Source: Frondihabitans sp. PhB188
GTDB lineage: Bacteria; Actinomycetota; Actinomycetes; Actinomycetales; Microbacteriaceae
Reading direction: 5' to 3'
Length of the DNA: 64,000 nt
Assembly: GCF_003752365.1 (NCBI RefSeq)
Contig: NZ_RJUO01000004.1
Coordinates: forward strand, 162,355-226,354
Made by a program: the position numbers and the translations under genes
Part shown: in pieces, positions 18,791 through 39,606 of the stretch
Layout: each line of letters opens with the position of its first letter
Numbering within the stretch: the stretch's first letter is position 1
Notes under the pieces: model-generated
What the model was told of the DNA's origin: nothing
What the model saw: the letters and a program-made list of their open reading frames with translations, nothing else
Databases searched by the model: none

Positions 18791-19444
18791 ATGACCGCAG
18801 GGACCACCGCCACCGCTACCGCCCTTCTGCCCGCCATCGTCATCGACCCCGTCGACTACCTGCTCGTCGACATCGCCACCGGGCGGCACCTTCCCGGCGA
18901 CGGCGTCCACGTCGAGCAGCTCGCCCACGAGCACGGACTGTCGCTGGCCGAGGCCGGCGCCGCGCTCGACGAGGCCTGGTGCCTCGGGCTTGTCTCGCGT
19001 CGGGCGACGACGACGGGCGGCATCGTCTGCTGGACCCCGGAGGCCACTCAGGTGATGCTGCACCGGCTCGCGCGGGCCATGGTCTCTGCGGTGACCGCCG
19101 GCCCCCGGTGCGACGCGAAGCGCGGACTCATCGACGGCGACGCGCAGCGGTTCACCGTCGTCGAGCTGTTCGGGCTGACGGCGCCCTGCGACGTCGCGCT
19201 CTTCCTCGAGGTAGCCCGCGCGCTGCTCGGCGCGTGGGCGCCCGATCTCCTCGACGAGCTGATCATGCCCGTCGCCGTGCTGTTCTCGCAGTCGGCCCAG
19301 CGCGTGCACGGCTTCGAGCCTGCGGCCGAGGCCGACGTGCGCTGCGAGATGGTGCGCGAGCTGGTGTCGAGCCTCATCGACGGCCGCACCGCCGACTTCG
19401 AGTCGACCGTGGCCGACTACGTGCTGGCGCTCTCGACGCACTGA
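18791..19444 (+). CDS. divergent GntR/FCD-like regulator
   Basis: A 217-residue protein that looks like a diverged GntR-type regulator. Residues about 20-60 (GRHLPGDGVHVEQLAHEHGLSLAEAGAAL...LGLVSRR) align with the GntR winged helix, including the GERL-like PGDGV turn and the GLV end of the wing. The rest is helical and ends with LVSSLIDGRTADFESTVADYV, like the last helices of FCD ligand domains. It shares this outline with the three tandem GntR proteins at 32-34 kb, but the EANRYTR motif is missing. No HTH arginine of the SRTPxREA type is retained, so DNA binding is not assured. It is monocistronic and followed by palindromic element B. Confidence 0.6.
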   Translation: MTAGTTATATALLPAIVIDPVDYLLVDIATGRHLPGDGVHVEQLAHEHGLSLAEAGAALDEAWCLGLVSRRATTTGGIVCWTPEATQVMLHRLARAMVSAVTAGPRCDAKRGLIDGDAQRFTVVELFGLTAPCDVALFLEVARALLGAWAPDLLDELIMPVAVLFSQSAQRVHGFEPAAEADVRCEMVRELVSSLIDGRTADFESTVADYVLALSTH

Positions 19445-29774: not shown

Positions 29775-31108
29775 CCGCCAACGAGCAGGCCTTCGCGCGC
29801 GCTCGCGCGTCCATCCCCGGCGGCGTGAACTCGCCGGTCCGGGCGTACGGCTCGGTCGGGGGCACCCCGCGCTTCCTCGTCAAGGCGCAGGGCGCGTACG
29901 TCACCGACGCCGACGGCCGCGAGTACGTCGACCTCGTCGCGTCGTGGGGGCCCGCCATCCTCGGGCACGCCCACCCCGCCGTGGTCGACGCCGTCCAGTC
30001 GGCGGCGGCCCGCGGCCTCTCCTTCGGCGCATCGACGCCGGGCGAGACCGAGCTGGCCGAGATCGTGCGCGAGCGCGTCAGCGTCGGCGAGCAGCGGCCC
30101 ATCGGCAAGATCCGCATGGTGTCCACCGGCACCGAGGCCACCATGACGGCCATCCGCCTGGCGCGCGGCTACACCGGCCGCGACCTGCTGGTGAAGTTCG
30201 CCGGCCACTACCACGGCCACTCCGACTCGCTGCTGGCCGAGGCCGGCTCCGGCGTCGCCACGCTCGCCCTGCCCGGATCGGCCGGCATCACGGCCGAGAC
30301 AGCGGCGCAGACGCTCGTGCTGCCGTACAACGACCTCGACGCCGTGCGCCGGGCGTTCGACGAGCACTCGGAGCGCATCGCCGCTGTGATCGTCGAGGCC
30401 GCCGCCGCCAACATGGGCGTCCTGGCGCCCGACCGCGGCTTCAACCGGTCGCTCTCGGAGATCACGCGGCGCCACGGCGCGCTGCTGATCGTCGACGAGG
30501 TGCTGACCGGGTTCCGCGTCGGCCGCGCCGGCTGGTGGGGGCTCGAGGCCTCGCGCGTCGTGCCAGACGGAGCCGGCTGGGAGCCCGACCTCATCACGTT
30601 CGGCAAGGTCATCGGCGGAGGCATGCCGCTCGCCGCGCTCGGCGGCCGCGCCGAGATCATGGACTTCCTCGCGCCCCTCGGGCCGGTGTACCAGGCCGGA
30701 ACCCTCAGCGGCAATCCCGTCGCCGTCGCCGCCGGAATCACGACCCTCCGCCTCGCCGAAGCCGACGTGTACCGTGCGATCGACTCGGCCGCCGATGTGG
30801 TCGCCCGCGAGACCTCGGCCGCTCTCTCGCGCGAGGGCGTCGAGCACACCGTGCAGCGCGCCGGCAACCTGTTCTCGTTCGCGTTCACCGCGACCCCGCC
30901 GCGCAACTACGACGACGTGCGGGCTCAGCAGGCATTCCGCTACCCGCCGTTCTTCCACGCGATGCTCGACGCCGGAGTCAACCTGCCCCCGTCGGTGTTC
31001 GAGGCGTGGTTCCTGACGGCTGCGCACGACGATGCGGCGCTCGGGCGGATCGTCGACGCGCTGCCTGCGGCGGCGAGGGCTGCGGCCGCGGCGGTCGAGT
31101 CGCGCTAG
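29771..31108 (+). CDS. hemL: glutamate-1-semialdehyde 2,1-aminomutase
   Basis: A 445-residue PLP enzyme that makes 5-aminolevulinate from the product of Hem[20 protein letters not shown] is the characteristic N terminus. [38 protein letters not shown] and the PLP-lysine segment [14 protein letters not shown] are intact. The start overlaps hemB. It is the last gene of the operon and is followed by palindromic element C before the convergent ABC gene. Confidence 0.97.
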
Positions 31109-31146
31109 CGGCGGTGGGCGGGTTGCGTCGGGCTGGCGGCGTCGAA

Positions 31147-31205
31147 CCCGCCGATTCGGCTCGGCCCCGCCGGGATTCGCGCGGGGGTGTGCCGATCCGG
31201 CGGGC
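31147..31205. repeat. intergenic palindromic element, copy C
   Basis: It opens with CCCGCCGATTCGGCTCGGCC and closes with GTGTGCCGATCCGGCGGG, with an inner CCCCGCCGGG/CGCGGGGG region. The outer arms pair over about 16 bp and match copies A and B. It lies between the convergent ends of hemL and the ABC ATPase gene, the same setting as the other two copies. Confidence 0.7.
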
Positions 31206-31231
31206 CTAGCCCGCGCGCCGGGACGGCGAGG

Positions 31232-32086
31232 TCACGCGCCGACGGCACCAGCGCGCCGCGCCGCCCACCGCCCAGCCGTCCGGGTGATCTCGAGCGGAAA
31301 GTCGAACGCCGCCGACACCAGCTCGCTCGTCAGGACGTCGTCGGCCGGCCCGCGGGCGGCGATGCGCCCGTCGCGAAGGAGCATGGCGTGCGTGGTCGAC
31401 GCCGGAAGGTCTTCGAGGTGGTGCGTCACGGTGACGCTCGCGATCGACGGGTGGGCCTCGCGCAGGGCGTCCACGGTCTCGAGCAGCTGCTCGCGGGCGG
31501 CGACGTCGAGGCCCGTGGCGGGCTCATCGAGAAGGAGGAGCGCCGGAACGGCGATGAGAGCCCGCGCGATGAGGGCGCGTCCGCGTTCGCCCTGCGAGAG
31601 GGTGCTCCAGCGGGCGTCGAGGCGGCGGGCGAGGCCGACGCCGGTGGCGAGTTCCTGCGCCCGGAGCAGGTCGGCCAGCTCGGCCTCCCACCGCGGGACC
31701 GGGTCGCTCGAACCGGTGAGGCCGGTCAGGACGACCTCGGTCACGGTGTTGTCGCCGAGCATGCGGTGCCTCGGGTCGACGTGGCCGATGTGGGTGCGGA
31801 GCTCGCGGAGCTCGACTCTGCCGAGGCGCCTGCCGAGCACGGTGACCGTGCCCGAGGAGGGATGGCCGAGGGCGCCGCACATCGTCAGCATCGTCGTCTT
31901 GCCGGCGCCGTTCGGGCCGATCAGGGCCCAGTGCTCTCCGGCGCGGACCTCGAGGTCGATGTGCTCGACGAGGTTGCGCCCGGCGCGGGTGACCCGGACG
32001 TCGTCGAGTGCCAGGACGACGGGCGCGGTGTCGGCCGCGACGTCACCCAGGCCAGCGAGCCCGCCGGCGTCGTCGCCGCCACCCAC
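31232..32086 (-). CDS. ABC transporter ATP-binding protein (orphan)
   Basis: A 284-residue ABC ATPase. Walker A is GPNGAGKTT, the signature LSQGERGRA, Walker B LLLLDEPATGLD, with the switch histidine in VTHHLEDLP. About 20 extra Gly/Ala/Asp-rich residues precede the domain. No permease gene is adjacent. It resembles YlmA/ModF-like stand-alone ATPases that may act in translation or serve a distant transporter. The GTG at 32086 was chosen; it begins 8 nt after the GntR stop with no strong ribosome site, so the start is uncertain. It probably belongs to the transcript of the upstream GntR gene. Confidence 0.85.
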   Translation of the reverse strand: MGGGDDAGGLAGLGDVAADTAPVVLALDDVRVTRAGRNLVEHIDLEVRAGEHWALIGPNGAGKTTMLTMCGALGHPSSGTVTVLGRRLGRVELRELRTHIGHVDPRHRMLGDNTVTEVVLTGLTGSSDPVPRWEAELADLLRAQELATGVGLARRLDARWSTLSQGERGRALIARALIAVPALLLLDEPATGLDVAAREQLLETVDALREAHPSIASVTVTHHLEDLPASTTHAMLLRDGRIAARGPADDVLTSELVSAAFDFPLEITRTAGRWAARRAGAVGA

Positions 32087-32094
32087 CGTGCCGC

Positions 32095-32796
32095 TCAGCG
32101 GACCGGCGCGGCCTCGGGGAACACGCCGGCGGCCGAGGCGGCTCCGACGTAGTCGCCCAGGCCGTCGAACGCCGTCTCGAACGCCGCCGCCGCTGCCACG
32201 CCGTCGCGCTTCTCGACACCCGAGCGGAGACGGGCGAGGAGGTCGCCCGAGATGTGGAACTCCACGGAGCGGCTGACGATGCTGAGGAGGAGGGCGGCTC
32301 GGTCTCCGACGGTCTCGAGGAGTCGGAACAGGCTCTTGCTCTGCGCGGCCGTCGCGATGATCTCGATGGCGCGGGCGAAGCTCGGGAGGCTCTCGGCTGC
32401 CAGCTTGCCCTTCGAGTCGCGGCCGACCGACGCGAGGAGGCTCACGACCTCGCGCGCCTCGGCGTCGCTCAGCTTCGGGACGCCGCGCCGGACGACGATC
32501 GCCCAGACGGCGAAGGCGGTCTCGGTGGTGTCGGCGAAGTCGGCCATGGTCGGCGAGATGACGCGCGTGTAGCGGTTCGCCTCGATGTCGACGAGGCCGT
32601 AGTCGGCCAGCTTGGCGATGGCCTCGCGCACCGGCGTGCGAGAGACTCCGAGCCAGCGGACCAGCTCGTCGTCGTTCAGTCGCTCGCCGAGCTCGAGGGT
32701 GCCGTCGCCGATGGCGGCGAGCATCTTGTCGAAGACGACGTCGCGCAGGAGGCGGCGGGGTGCGGGGGCTTCGGTGTTCGGAACGGGAACAGGCAT
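32095..32796 (-). CDS. GntR-family regulator, tandem paralogue 1
   Basis: A 233-residue FCD-type GntR regulator. Residues about 14-80 are the winged helix (LRDVVFDKMLAAIGDGTLEL, RLNDDELVRWLGVSRTPVRE, then VDIEANRYTRV). The remainder is an all-helical ligand domain that ends in an AAFETAFDGLGDYV helix. It is nearly identical in its DNA-binding half to the two genes upstream but differs in the ligand half. The metal-binding Asp/His pattern of classical FCD domains is not obvious. The ABC ATPase follows after 8 nt. Confidence 0.9.
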   Translation of the reverse strand: MPVPVPNTEAPAPRRLLRDVVFDKMLAAIGDGTLELGERLNDDELVRWLGVSRTPVREAIAKLADYGLVDIEANRYTRVISPTMADFADTTETAFAVWAIVVRRGVPKLSDAEAREVVSLLASVGRDSKGKLAAESLPSFARAIEIIATAAQSKSLFRLLETVGDRAALLLSIVSRSVEFHISGDLLARLRSGVEKRDGVAAAAAFETAFDGLGDYVGAASAAGVFPEAAPVR

Positions 32797-32850
32797 GCGT
32801 ATGCGGCTTTCGGGTTCGGGTGCGTATCGGGTGGGCGCCGGAGCGCGGGG

Positions 32851-33540
32851 TCAGGCGGGGTAGATGCCGCTCTCGCGCACGGCGGCGTAGTAGTCGCCGA
32901 AGCGGTCGGGCTGGCCCGAGACGAGGTCGTGGGCCGTACGAGCATCGGAGGCCTCGACGGCGTCGCGGAGTCGGCGGCTCATCTCGATCGAGGCGTCCCA
33001 CGGGAAGTGCCCCTGGGCGGCGGCGCGGCGGATGAGCAGGACGGTCATCGGCGCCGTCACGGAGTACAGGCGCGCCAGCATGGGGCTCTTCGCCGCCTCG
33101 AGCACCGTGACCGTGAATGCGTCGAGGTCGATGACGCTCTCGGCGGAGTGGGCCTCGAATGCCTTCACGCGCGCATCTAGGGCTGCCACGACGGACTTGC
33201 GGCTCGCGGCGTCCAGCTCGCCGACGCCGCGCAGCATGATGAGGGCCCAGACGTCGTAGCAGGCGCGCAGCGTGTCGACGAACTCGGCGAAGGTCGGAGC
33301 GATGACGCGCGTGTAGCGGTTGGCCTCGATGTCGACGAGGCCCTGCTCGGCCAGCTTGGCGATGGCCTCGCGCACCGGCGTGCGGGAGACGCCGAGCCAG
33401 CGGACCAGCTCCTCGTCGTTGAGGCGCTCGCCGAGCTCGAGGGTTCCGTCGAGGATGGCGAAGAACATCTTGTCGTAGACGACGTCGCGCAGCAGGCGGC
33501 GCGGCTCCTGGTTCTCGGGGGTGGGGACGGGGACTGGCAC
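32851..33540 (-). CDS. GntR-family regulator, tandem paralogue 2
   Basis: A 229-residue GntR regulator with the same N-terminal block as its neighbours (RLLRDVVYDKMFFAILDGTL, ERLNDEELVRWLGVSRTPVR, EANRYTRVIAPTFAEF). The start is GTG, with AGGGAG upstream. The ligand half (about 80-229) contains FTVTVLEAAKSPMLARLYSV and ends SGQPDRFGDYYAAVRESGIYPA, the last part resembling the C terminus of paralogue 3 (AVQRSGAIPV). It is separated by 54 nt from paralogue 1. A tandem duplication followed by divergence in ligand choice is the simplest reading. Confidence 0.9.
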   Translation of the reverse strand: MPVPVPTPENQEPRRLLRDVVYDKMFFAILDGTLELGERLNDEELVRWLGVSRTPVREAIAKLAEQGLVDIEANRYTRVIAPTFAEFVDTLRACYDVWALIMLRGVGELDAASRKSVVAALDARVKAFEAHSAESVIDLDAFTVTVLEAAKSPMLARLYSVTAPMTVLLIRRAAAQGHFPWDASIEMSRRLRDAVEASDARTAHDLVSGQPDRFGDYYAAVRESGIYPA

Positions 33541-33600
33541 TGGGACTCCCTGAGGTCGTGCGGATGGGGGGTTGTACTGGCGGGTTGGTGCGAGGCGGGC

Positions 33601-34281
33601 TCAGACCGGGATCGCACCCGATCGCTGGACCGCCTGGAGGTGCGCCGTCGTGAGCTGCTGGTAGGTCTCGAAGGCGGCGATGACGGCCTCTCTGTCACGG
33701 GCCGTCGCGGCCGCGCGCAGCTGCTCGACGTAGTCGGCCGTGGCCTCCCACTGGAACTCGTCGAGGGCCGCCTGGATCATGAAGACGACGCGGGCGTTCA
33801 GCGTGGCCTCGAGCTGCGGCAGCAGAGGGTTGCCCGTGCGCGCGAGCGTGAAGCTCGTCATCGCGCCGATCCGGTTGACGGCCTCCGTGTCGTGCGCCGC
33901 CAGGTACGCGAGCGTCTGGTCGCACATCGCCGAGAACTCGCGGACGTCGTCGTCGGTGAACCGCGGGAACGCCCAGCGGGCGCTGAGCTCGTGGAAGCCG
34001 CCGAGCATCTGCACCGCGTGCTCGTACATCTCGAAGGTGGGGCGCACGATCCGCGTGTAGCGGTTCGCCTCCATCTCGACGAGGCCGTAGTCGACGAGCT
34101 TCGCGATCGCCTCGCGGATCGGCGTGCGCGAGACGCCGAGCCAGGAGACCAGCTCGTCGTCGTTGAGCCGCTCGCCCGCCTGAAGGGTGCCGTCCTGGAT
34201 CGCCGCGATCATCTTCTCGAAGACGACGTCTCGGAGCAGACGCCGGGGCGCCGGGTTGTCGGGTCCGTTCGGGACAGGCAT
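33601..34281 (-). CDS. GntR-family regulator, tandem paralogue 3
   Basis: A 226-residue GntR regulator and the first gene of the three-member array. The winged helix is conserved (RLLRDVVFEKMIAAIQDGTL, RLNDDELVSWLGVSRTPIRE, MEANRYTRIV). The ligand domain differs and contains AMTSFTLARTGNPLLPQLEA. GGTGAGG precedes the ATG. The region upstream (34300-34350) is AT-rich with GTATC and GATAC in inverted arrangement and GAGT/ACTC around it, likely promoter and operator. The ligand is unknown. Confidence 0.9.
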   Translation of the reverse strand: MPVPNGPDNPAPRRLLRDVVFEKMIAAIQDGTLQAGERLNDDELVSWLGVSRTPIREAIAKLVDYGLVEMEANRYTRIVRPTFEMYEHAVQMLGGFHELSARWAFPRFTDDDVREFSAMCDQTLAYLAAHDTEAVNRIGAMTSFTLARTGNPLLPQLEATLNARVVFMIQAALDEFQWEATADYVEQLRAAATARDREAVIAAFETYQQLTTAHLQAVQRSGAIPV

Positions 34282-34303
34282 TCCTCACCTTCCATGCGGC
34301 TGA

Positions 34304-34340
34304 ATGTATCGAGTATCTCAGACTCTAGGATACGCCGTAC
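34304..34340 (-). promoter_or_regulatory. promoter/operator region of the GntR array
   Basis: Upstream of the first GntR gene lies a short AT-rich stretch with GTATC and GATAC half-sites separated by 18 nt, enclosing GAGT ATCTCAG ACTC. GntR proteins usually bind such short inverted repeats and repress themselves. A TATCCT on the minus strand may be the -10. The assignment is inferred from position. Confidence 0.4.
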
Positions 34341-34389
34341 GGATTTGTCGAGCGGTCGGCGGCCTGGTCGATGACGTATCAGCGACCCG

Positions 34390-35379
34390 TCAGCGTCGCA
34401 CGTCGACGACGGTCCGCCCGCGGACCCGTCCGCGCAGGATCTCGCCCGCCAGGCCCGGCACCTCGCCCAGAGCGACCTCGTCGGTCAGTGAGTCGAGCAG
34501 GTCGAGGTCGAGGTCGACCGCGAGGCGCTCCCAGGCGGTCCGTCGGAGCGCCGCGGGTGCATCGACCGAGTTGATGCCGTGCAGGGAGACCCCGCGGAGG
34601 ATGAACGGCAGCACCGTCGTCGGCAGGTCGCTGCCCTGGGCTAGGCCGCACGCGGTGACAGCGCCGCCCCACTTCGTCTGCGCGAGAGCGTTCGCCAGAG
34701 TCGCGCTGCCGACGGAGTCGACGGCCCCGGCCCAGCGCGGCTTCTGCAGGGGCTTGCCGGCGTCCGAGAGCTCGGCGCGGTCGATCACGTCGGCGGCGCC
34801 GAGCGACCGGAGGAAGTCCGCCTGCTCGGGGCGCCCGGTCGAGGCGACGACGCGGTACCCGAGGCGGGCGAGGAGTGCGATGGACACGGATCCGACGCCG
34901 CCCGCGGATCCGGTGACGAGCACGTCGCCGTCGTCGGGCGCGACGTCGCGCTCGAGGCGCAGCACGCTGAGCATGGCGGTGAAGCCGGCCGTGCCGATGG
35001 CGGCGGCCCGGCGCGGGGTGATGTCCTCGGGCAGCTCGACCAGCGAGGCCGCGCTCACGTACGCCGTCTCGGCGTAGCCGCCGTGCCGGGTCTCGCCGAG
35101 ACCCGCGCCGTTCACGACCACGCTGTCGCCGGCGTTGAACCGCCCGGCCGCGTCGCCCTCGGCGACTGTCCCGACCACGTCGATCCCCGGCACGAGCGGC
35201 AGCCGTCGGGCCACGCCGCGATCGCCTGTGAGCGCCATCCCGTCTTTGAAGTTGAGGCTCGACCACTCGACGTCGACGGTCACCCCGTCGGCGTCCGGGG
35301 ATCCAGGGCGCAGGAACTCGGAGCCGACGTCCTGCACGGACGCCGACGCGGACTCGGTCACGACGACAGCTCGGGTCAT
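34390..35379 (-). CDS. YhdH/AcuI-type quinone/acrylyl-CoA reductase
   Basis: A 329-residue zinc-free medium-chain dehydrogenase/reductase. VEWSSLNFKDGMALTG and VPGIDVVGTV are characteristic of the YhdH/YhfP/AcuI group, and VLVTGSAGGVGSVSIALLARLGY is the NADPH-binding loop. AcuI enzymes reduce acrylyl-CoA to propionyl-CoA. GLAQGSDLPTTVLPFILRGVSLHGI is the conserved C-terminal substrate-loop segment. A TACGGT box ends 6 nt before the ATG. A copy of the dispersed 14-mer near the start encodes SEFLRP. Independent of the neighbouring pfk gene. Confidence 0.88.
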   Translation of the reverse strand: MTRAVVVTESASASVQDVGSEFLRPGSPDADGVTVDVEWSSLNFKDGMALTGDRGVARRLPLVPGIDVVGTVAEGDAAGRFNAGDSVVVNGAGLGETRHGGYAETAYVSAASLVELPEDITPRRAAAIGTAGFTAMLSVLRLERDVAPDDGDVLVTGSAGGVGSVSIALLARLGYRVVASTGRPEQADFLRSLGAADVIDRAELSDAGKPLQKPRWAGAVDSVGSATLANALAQTKWGGAVTACGLAQGSDLPTTVLPFILRGVSLHGINSVDAPAALRRTAWERLAVDLDLDLLDSLTDEVALGEVPGLAGEILRGRVRGRTVVDVRR

Positions 35380-37668: not shown

Positions 37669-38544
37669 CTACGCCGCGGACGCGTGCTCCTCGCACAGGG
37701 GATTCCGAGGCGTGCACGCGTCGCAGACGACCAGGCGCTGCCGGCACGACGGGTCGGCGCAGTTCTGCAGGTGCGACGTCGTCTCGCCGCAGACGGCGCA
37801 GGTGCTCAGGATCGCCGTGTGGTCAGAGAACCGCACCTCTTCGCGGCCGTCGAAGACGTACAGCGGCCCCTCCCACAGTCCGTCGTCGCCGAAGCGCTCG
37901 CCGTAGCGGACGATGCCTCCGTCGAGCTGGTACACCTCCTGGAAGCCGCGGTCGACCATCAGCGAGGAGAGGACCTCACAGCGGACGCCGCCGGTGCAGT
38001 AGGTGACGACGGGCTTGTCTTTGAGGTGGTCGTAGCGGCCCGACTCAAGCTCGGCGACGAACTCGCGGGTGTTCTGCACGTCGGGCACGACCGCGCCCTT
38101 GAAGCGGCCGATCCTCGCCTCGAACTCGTTGCGGCCGTCGAAGAACGTCACGTCTCTGCGCGCCACCAGCTCGTGCAGCGCGTCGGGGTCGAGACGCGTG
38201 CCGCCGCCGACGACCCCGTGCTTGTCGACCCGGAGCTCGCCGGGCGCGCCGAAGCTGACGATCTCGTCGCGCACCTTGACGCTGAGCTTCGGGAAGTCGG
38301 AGCCTCGGCCCTCGCCCCACTTGACGTCCATGTCGCGGAAGGCCGGGTACTCGCGGGTCGTGCGGAGGTAGCGCTTCACATCCGGCAGGTCGCCGCCGAC
38401 GGTGCCGTTGAGGCCGTCCTTCGAGATGACGATGCGGCCGGTCAGCCCCAGCGACTCGCAGAGGTCGCGCTGCCACAGCCGGATCGCGTCGGGGTCGGGC
38501 AGCGGCGTGAACACGTAGTAGAGCAGGATCTTGGGGGTCGCCAC
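37669..38544 (-). CDS. trhO: tRNA uridine(34) hydroxylase (rhodanese-related TrhO)
   Basis: A 291-residue TrhO/YceA, which makes 5-hydroxyuridine at tRNA position 34 using oxygen. The N-terminal acylphosphatase-like domain includes [14 protein letters not shown] and [16 protein letters not shown]. The rhodanese domain has the active-site loop YCTGGVRCE. The C-terminal zinc-type cysteine cluster is [19 protein letters not shown] followed by CDAC and C. The start is GTG 38544; TACCAT ends 6 nt upstream. Divergent from the glycosylase gene with a 39-nt spacer. Confidence 0.93.
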
Positions 38545-38583
38545 CCGAGCATGGTAGTCGGTGGCTGCGGTTAGCCTTCTGGC

Positions 38584-39606
38584 ATGTCGATCGCCGCTCA
38601 GCCCGCCTCCTCGGACGCAGCGGTGCCGAGTGGGGCTGTGCCGAGTGGGGCGGTGCCGAGTGGGTCTGTGCCGCTTACGTCTGTGGCGGCCGGTCCGGCG
38701 ATCTCGACCGTGTACCGTCCCGAGTCGGTCGTGTCGGTGCTGCCGACTCTGCGCCCGCTGATGCGCGGCATCGGCGACCCGGCGTTCCGCGTCGTGGGCG
38801 ATTCCGTGTGGAGGGGCGTCCGCACCCCCGTGGGCCCCGCCACCGTGTGCCTGTCGGGCGGCCGAGACGGCGTGCGCGCGACGGCCTGGGGGCCGGGCGC
38901 CGAGTGGGCGATCGACGGCATCCCCGAGCTGATGGGCCGCGGCGACGACTGGTCGGGCCTCGACGTGTCGGGCACCGAGCTGCTGCGCGAGGCGCGGAGG
39001 CGCAACCCCGGGCTGAGGCTCACCCGCACCAACCAGGTCGTGCAGATGCTCGTGCCCGCCGTGCTCGAGCAGAAGGTGACGAGCCGCGAGGCGTGGCGCG
39101 CCTGGCGCACGCTGGTCCGCGCCCACGGGACGACCGCGCCCGGTCCGGCGCCCGACGGGCTCGTCGTGCCGCCCGACGCCGCCACCTGGGCGCGCATCCC
39201 GAGCTGGGAGTGGCACCGGGCCGGCGTCGGGCCGCAGCGATCGGCCACCGTCATGCGCGTGTGCGCCGTGGCGGCCGGCCTCGAGCGCACCCTCGCGCTC
39301 GGCCGGGGCGGCGACGAGATCCAGCGCCGCCTGCGCTCGGTCGTCGGGGTCGGCGTGTGGACCGCCGCCGAGACCAGCCAGCGCGCGCACGGCGACGCCG
39401 ACTCGCCCAGCGTGGGCGACTACCACCTGCCGGCGCTCGTCGGCTGGGCCCTGATCGGCAAGCCCGTCGACGACGACGGGATGCTCGAGCTGCTGGAGCC
39501 GTGGCGCGGCAATCGGGAGCGCGTCATGCGCCTGATCGGTGTCAGCGGCTTCAGCAAGCCGAAGTTCGGACCCAGAATGACGATCCAGGACCACCGAGAC
39601 CACTGA
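38584..39606 (+). CDS. AlkA-like DNA-3-methyladenine glycosylase with repeat-encoded N-terminal tail
   Basis: A 340-residue HhH-GPD glycosylase, predicted to excise alkylated purines. The helix-hairpin-helix is [14 protein letters not shown], and the catalytic Asp is D279 in [31 protein letters not shown] is the conserved core helix. Residues about 13-28 are VPSGA repeats from a 15-bp tandem repeat (38622-38681) and are probably disordered. TAGCCT ends 6 nt before the ATG. Six nt separate its end from the convergent MarR gene. Confidence 0.87.
38622..38681 (+). repeat. 15-bp coding tandem repeat, four copies
   Basis: Four units of about GTGCCGAGTGGGGCT (the last diverged to GTGCCGCTTACGTCT) lie near the 5' end of the glycosylase gene and encode [20 protein letters not shown]. 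The encoded pentapeptide resembles the VPTGS tail of the HAD hydrolase at 7.7 kb, but the DNA units are different. Confidence 0.9.

Follow-up and report, generated by a model that had tools for sequence, protein, structure and literature searches.

The window, the whole stretch of 64,000 nucleotides that was analysed (C4:162355-226354 of the 3.79 Mb genome G000), contains three adjacent GntR regulators, A, B and C, whose winged helices are nearly identical and whose ligand-binding halves are strongly different. This contrast between a frozen helix and a fast-changing sensor half is real and strong, and it characterises the whole clade and not the array alone. We read the locus, with a probability of about 0.5, as a self-regulated operon in which one shared operator would be read by one to three repressors, with a solitary ABC ATPase as output. 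It is clearly a lineage-specific variant of a regulator family that is common in bacteria, and not a new kind of system.

The array and the two halves of its regulators

On the minus strand the acuI/YhdH-like gene is followed by A, B, C and the ABC ATPase, and then by the convergent hemL of a heme cluster. Gene names (acuI, hemL and so on) were assigned by reading the sequences, and the gene calls in the window and at the loci of relatives come from our own gene caller, with some starts misplaced. The features of the array are as follows.

35379-34390, minus strand: acuI/YhdH-like gene, preceding A with an intergenic stretch between
34322-34351, minus strand: candidate promoter TCGACA-N18-TAGAGT, a 9/12 consensus match whose position is kept in relatives
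34306-34317, plus strand: candidate operator GTATCGAGTATC, a GTATC direct repeat with a 7-nt step, just downstream of the -10 element and within the best-conserved 20 intergenic columns
33601-34281, minus strand: GntR paralogue A, 226 aa, ATG start, first gene of the array; PF00392; predicted FCD/VanR-like ligand half
32851-33540, minus strand: GntR paralogue B, 229 aa, GTG start; PF00392
32095-32796, minus strand: GntR paralogue C, 233 aa; PF00392; no Pfam FCD match, predicted fold FCD-like
31232-32086, minus strand: NBD-only ABC ATPase, 284 aa if the start is the GTG 8 nt past the stop of C

An earlier note on this DNA had described three adjacent GntR regulators with near-identical helices and strongly different ligand domains, and the present analysis agrees with that description. 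A, B and C are complete same-strand ORFs separated by 60 nt (A-B) and 54 nt (B-C), and each product matches PF00392 (45.2, 48.1 and 41.7 bits, respectively) above the cut-off of 27. The motifs listed in the note as shared, RLLRDVV, ERLND, WLGVSRTP and EANRYTR, are present in all three; the recognition segment SRTP[IV]REAIA[KR]L and the wing EANRYTR are common to A, B, C and 39 of 39 clade rows. Winged-helix identity is 74% for A-B, 81% for A-C and 88% for B-C, and the ligand halves of the same pairs share 23, 19 and 30%. Among 168 other GntR pairs of the genome, winged-helix identity has a mean of 33%, a 95th percentile of 53 and a maximum of 65%, and ligand-half identity has a mean of 16%; this background compares 19 proteins out of 22 PF00392 places, includes relatives from the same wider GntR family and contains picks chosen by position in L126 (a short mis-called frame), L128 and L131, which are absent from the family-profile search matches. 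The gap between helix and ligand-half identity is 51-62 points in the A/B/C pairs, compared with a largest value of 46 among the 168 others. The note had allowed that the DNA-binding halves might prove no more similar than those of typical GntR pairs; they lie far above the ordinary pairs of this genome.

The Pfam FCD domain (PF07729) is matched by A and B at 21.8 and 22.2 bits, under the cut-off of 24.3, and is not matched by C. At E <= 0.01, PF00392 was found in all 28 of the members scanned and PF07729 in 25. The AlphaFold2 models of A (pLDDT 90.8; 28 sequences) and C (pLDDT 86.4; 16 sequences) each have a winged helix and, in the C-terminal half, helices only. Foldseek matches both models to GntR proteins; within the 50 listed matches per model, the highest target TM-scores are with 9isw (AlkR/VanR; 0.79/0.85) for A and with 9isw and 3fms (TM0439; 0.71/0.78) for C. 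The ligand halves of A and C are thereby predicted to be FCD/VanR-like in fold. A winged helix with an all-helical FCD-like half is likewise found in the GntR regulators of FCD/VanR type AlkR (9isw), McbR (4p9f), PmiR (7xp0), Atu1419 (6za3) and TM0439 (3sxy), which figure among the structural matches of A and C and from which the present array differs in its tandem arrangement, its strongly conserved helices and its solitary ATPase partner. TM0439 has three histidines in the aligned region, which we take to bind metal, whereas the family profile alignment has no histidine opposite the three of 3sxy.

The contrast between the halves recurs between genomes. From G000 to G004, A retains 94% identity in the helix and 72% in the ligand half, and C retains 96 and 58%. 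B has no orthologue in G004, its best match being C2 (helix 88%, ligand half 29%). Four well-matched controls from outside the family (L122, L127, L128 and L129) have 84-92% in the helix and 76-84% in the ligand half, and the other eight have 47-81 and 32-69%, four of these belonging to the wider family and some probably not being orthologous in the strict sense; the control set leaves out 11 GntR places of G004 (unfetched or in other loci). One wider-family control (L100 6308-7000; helix 81, ligand half 56) has a 25-point gap, as large as that of A, and in L125 the ligand half is slightly higher than the helix (69 versus 64). In 20 single-copy A genes of Curtobacterium type (190 pairs) the mean identity is 96.7% for the helix and 50.5% for the ligand half, and these helices are 88-91% identical to that of A in the window.

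In eight Frondihabitans/Frigoribacterium pairs, dN/dS is 0.01-0.2 for the helix and 0.2-0.7 for the ligand half, values that are to be taken as relative only since dS is high and GC3-biased; dN in the ligand half is 7 to 61 times that in the helix. Ligand-half dN/dS is less than 1 in 20 of 20 pairs. Eight of 12 close Curtobacterium pairs have zero amino-acid changes in the helix, and in the pair L016/L018 the halves are nearly equal in divergence (ratio 1.4). As the contrast also occurs with a single GntR copy, we ascribe it mainly to selection on the DNA-binding half, and by itself it provides no argument for a three-signal device. The fast ligand halves could mean relaxed constraint and not new ligands.

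We also considered whether the helices are kept alike by gene conversion restricted to that domain, acting between B and C and, in G004, between C and C2, and regard this as very improbable. The tree of helix DNA and the tree of ligand-half proteins, which the earlier note had proposed to compare, agree in setting A against B and C, with the 11 B genes together in each and no significant conflict. The helix DNA tree groups the B genes with support of 96/92 and not by genome, and the five C-type genes also group in it, though not strongly (75/74). None of the constraint tests for conversion is significant (p-AU 0.30, 0.23, 0.11 and 0.08). Synonymous-codon identity in the helix is 0.86 for the same-genome B-C (or C-C2) pair in three of four genomes, compared with between-genome B-C means of 0.73-0.75, and C2 of G004 joins a C-like helix (96% of amino acids) to a ligand half of only 34%. 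However, the B-C value in G001 is 0.66, and between-genome values reach 0.83 for B-C and 0.86 for B-B, so that the raised same-genome identity is a hint only. The single-copy Curtobacterium A helix is, moreover, equally frozen. We therefore do not adopt conversion as the cause, the trees, synonymous sites and AU tests together yielding only a hint of it.

Position, copy number and the ATPase in relatives

A profile of the winged helices of A, B and C finds matches at E <= 1e-33 in 13 of 199 genomes of the family Microbacteriaceae, four Frondihabitans among them, and in four of 85 genera. The position of the locus (pfkA, acuI, one to three GntR genes, the ATPase and usually hemL) is kept in Frondihabitans, Frigoribacterium and Curtobacterium, so that the synteny check which the earlier note had suggested gives a conserved place in three genera with a varying number of GntR genes. 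We surveyed 27 loci outside the window and G001-G005 (L013-L035, L112-L114 and L119), of which L112-L114 were classed as Frigoribacterium-type and L119 as Curtobacterium-type by gene order and protein identities (for example hemB, 90-92 and 85%, respectively, to named loci). pfkA is present in 27/27. acuI stands directly before the GntR gene in 26 (the exception is L119), and the ATPase directly after the last GntR gene in 26 (the exception is L029, with two genes between). hemL comes next after the ATPase in 19 loci, one gene later in L031 and L033 and further on in L015 and L022; it was not seen in four of the 27 (L014, L024, L034 and L035), in L035 since the locus ends. From the stop of the last GntR gene to the first aligned ATPase codon there are at most 88 nt, on the same strand, in 27 of 28 rows including the window, and 1224 nt in L029. 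The ATPase also follows the GntR genes in G001-G004.

The GntR sets at this place are as follows.

G000 (window): A, B, C
G004: A, C2, C
G001: B, C
G003: B, C, with an N gap in B
G002: A, B
G006 (L017): A (interrupted), B
G005: B only, with the ATPase gone from the locus
Frigoribacterium-type loci: two GntR genes (L013, L014) or one (L112-L114)
Curtobacterium-type loci: one GntR gene, A-type

Copy sets across the clade thus include A only, B only, A+B, B+C and A+B+C. B-type genes are present in six of the seven Frondihabitans genomes (all except G004) and in all five of the Frigoribacterium-type loci read, and C-type genes occur beyond the window in G001, G003 and G004. A has matches of 79% in G004 and 76% in G002. 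In a fourth genus (g65; L116-L118) a single A-like gene lies elsewhere, without the ATPase. The GntR frames of the array are open apart from the interrupted A of G006 and the N gap in B of G003; as G006 also has split or shortened hemB, trhO and putA frames, its broken A may be a sequencing error. Where A has been lost, a leader and an ATG-containing remnant stand before B in G001 and G003, and the leader alone in G005. No ATPase remnant was found in the G005 locus. Since G005 keeps B without a locus ATPase, the ATPase cannot be the only purpose of the array there. An ATPase gene that is 63% identical stands alone elsewhere in the G005 genome (L096, L098).

Near trhO, about 4-7 kb away, relatives carry another GntR gene or pair that is more diverged and seems to have a promoter of its own (pairs in L092, L094, L095, L096 and L114; single genes in L093, L097, L112 and L113, some of these at the locus edge). 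In the window the gene calls show none between trhO and the AlkA-like gene (38544-38683), and the best match to a remnant in 38301-38900 (E 0.009, 31% identity) was judged to be chance. Short imperfect repeats (GTGCCGAGTGGGG...) lie around the start of the AlkA-like gene, at about 38610-38690 of the window.

The ATPase matches PF00005 at 91.2 bits, and its Walker A, signature (LSQGERG), Walker B and H-loop (VTHH) are intact. At the expected place of the Q-loop glutamine it has DPRH, a difference set against general expectation and not against the residue of 2ihy itself. None of the 32 locus orthologues (34 rows, two duplicates) has the glutamine; they read IGHVDPRH, or VGHVDPRH in L112. Six more distant relatives (56-63%, elsewhere in the genomes) have [DNT]PRH in five cases and TSRY in L073. 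The Q-loop glutamine normally touches the permease, and its loss therefore fits an ATPase working without one. There is no permease beside the ATPase in the window, where its neighbours are GntR, hemL and acuI, and none was recognised directly beside it among the labelled genes at the loci of relatives; other transporter genes lie at a greater distance in L014 and L024. To judge from these features, the ATPase is unlikely to drive transport in the conventional manner. The earlier note was right that no permease adjoins it, the neighbours being GntR genes and the convergent hemL, but the label 'orphan' hides a GntR-ATPase linkage that is conserved across relatives.

The best PDB sequence match of the ATPase is 2ihy (2.9e-41), which we take to be a YlmA/ModF-like protein of S. 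aureus. Like NBD-only ATPases of the 2ihy type, the present enzyme has a single nucleotide-binding domain, a VTHH H-loop and no permease nearby; it differs from them in being tied to GntR genes in three genera. The locus is a tractable setting for the poorly understood solitary ABC ATPases with an altered Q-loop. We note that solitary ABC ATPases whose Q-loop mostly lacks the glutamine form two families in the relatives (31232-32086; L062-L091). The second family, at 40-45% identity, is present in most of 40 relatives searched, and at the Q-loop place it has glutamine in L074 and L075, a gap in L088 and another residue in the remaining rows.

Promoter, candidate operator and readings of the array

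A search of 31050-34700 for sigma-70-like promoters found one, just before A (shuffled sequences, 0.2, sd 0.4), and no internal promoter before B, C or the ATPase at that stringency, at which weak ones would be missed. In the intergenic stretch of seven Frondihabitans and five Frigoribacterium-type loci the best-conserved 20-column windows are located at and right after the -10 element. One of these, GTCTGAGATACTCGATACAT, the reverse complement of which contains GTATCGAGTATC, has a pairwise identity of 0.91 in the seven Frondihabitans and 0.79 in all 12 rows; the best Frigoribacterium-type window (0.85) is two columns away. Median intergenic identity is 0.78 in Frondihabitans, 0.62 in all rows and 0.53 in the Frigoribacterium-type loci, and the acuI coding windows have means of 0.73 (maximum 0.85), 0.68 (maximum 0.78) and 0.68, respectively. 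As intergenic windows in Frondihabitans are generally well conserved, the peak of 0.91 stands out less there than the peak in Frigoribacterium does. The conserved block precedes whichever GntR gene comes first.

GTATCGAGTATC occurs in the 3.79 Mb genome as one exact copy, the home site, and one copy with a single mismatch (C1:1028040), compared with 1 for the reversed control pattern. Matches with two mismatches number 2 in the window against 1.94 expected, so that only the exact match is meaningful. An inverted repeat, GTATC-N11-GATAC, was rejected as the operator because the Frigoribacterium-type loci and some Frondihabitans lack its outer GTATC, and the direct repeat in the conserved block is preferred as the candidate; this choice is a guess. 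Separate operators before B and C were also set aside, no conserved element being apparent when the upstream stretches were read by eye. The promoters of Curtobacterium share a different element, CAAGCGTTTGC, upstream of TAGGAT (taken as the -10 element), and the GTATC repeat is not clear in them. Given that their A helix is so close to that of the window, this argues against one ancient operator for the clade, or else the right bases have been missed. A palindrome like CAAGCGTTTGC, which in our view resembles LacI-family operators, lies at most 75 nt upstream of the single GntR start in most of L015-L035 (L017 excluded) and is absent in L024. The suggestion of the earlier note that one operator set answers three signals is therefore upheld in part: there is one conserved promoter/operator-like block for the array, but the helix/ligand contrast offered with it also occurs in single-copy loci.

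In the self-regulated operon that we favour, A, B, C and the ATPase would be transcribed from the single promoter upstream of A, and A, B and C would be homologous FCD/VanR-type GntR repressors of their own operon. Having the same DNA-reading surface, they would share a binding site over the start region, an operator comprising GTATCGAGTATC and the bases around it, and each would be released by its own ligand; the output would be the array itself and the NBD-only ATPase. Species would differ in the sensor modules they have acquired or lost, with the operator unchanged. If all three repress through one operator, the logic of full induction would be AND, each active repressor having to be released and one signal not sufficing; loss of a copy would simplify the input and gain of a copy would add a condition. 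GntR ligand halves usually form a dimer, and as those of the array are very different, same-with-same dimers are likelier than mixed ones. We infer co-transcription, repression, shared binding, distinct ligands and the non-transport role of the ATPase alike. That the locus is a multi-input switch evolving by sensor swapping, in which one to three repressors, co-expressed and alike in their DNA-reading surface but strongly different in their pockets, would act through a fixed operator and jointly set the level of a non-transport ATPase, seems to us rather unlikely.

The array might instead be a relic of tandem duplication, its helices held by autoregulation and cross-interference, its ligand halves relaxed and without distinct ligands, and its copies near-redundant and being lost. 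We hold this to be a possible reading, on the unlikely side. It would account for the one, two or three GntR genes beside the ATPase among the seven Frondihabitans, for the leader and start-codon remnants of the missing A in G001, G003 and G005, for ligand-half dN/dS values of up to 0.7 and for Pfam FCD scores that fall under the cut-off in A and B and vanish in C. It sits less well with a ligand-half dN/dS that stays below 1 in every pair, with frames that are all open but for the N gap in B of G003 and the interrupted A of G006, a record in which further frames are broken, and with the confident, FCD-like predicted folds of A and C. If instead each regulator had a distinct distant regulon, the shared promoter would serve only their own expression. 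GntR/FCD proteins commonly have distant metabolic genes under their control, and both the persistence of B in G005 without the ATPase and the A-like gene of genus g65 that stands elsewhere without one are in keeping with this; but regulators with identical DNA-contact segments would be expected to share a motif, and a genome-wide count of exact and single-mismatch copies of the candidate motif gives one of each. We consider such distinct regulons quite improbable.

A partial parallel to the self-regulated operon is the expanded Lrp/FFRP family of Halobacterium salinarum, in which paralogues differ in effector preference and regulate similar genes (PMC4236453). Variation of the DNA-binding domain is part of the divergence described there, whereas here the genes are in tandem and the helix is nearly fixed. 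Titles and abstract openings in the literature revealed no treatment of the GntR array or of its ATPase. Should A, B and C share one operator, the locus would be a natural experiment in adding and dropping signals at a fixed promoter; the seven Frondihabitans genomes carry different GntR sets in this one chromosomal position, so that the contribution of each sensor would be directly measurable.

Other GntR relatives in the genome

The gene at 18791-19444, which the earlier note had put forward as a possible fourth relative, is at best a very remote and doubtful one. Its product itself has no Pfam match and lacks the SRTPxRE segment; its N-terminal half aligns to the GntR helix in register, with an hhalign probability of 0.5%. 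The protein was found in seven of 25 genomes searched, all of the same genus, and one of the seven orthologues matches PF00392 (1.8e-5). The gene adjoins hemA, from which it is divergent, and its product has a degenerate GntR-like N-terminus. The G004 orthologue (L138) carries a repetitive insert of about 30 residues in mid-protein that is absent from the six others aligned.

Better kin of the array in this genome are located at C4:4460, at C2:637978 and in a tandem pair at C2:138313/138992. Beyond the array, the wider GntR family has members in this genome at L099 4424-5080, L100 6308-7682 and L101 5973-6659, among them a second tandem pair; the gene beside that pair is, from a look at its sequence, presumably a PLP-dependent sulfhydrylase.
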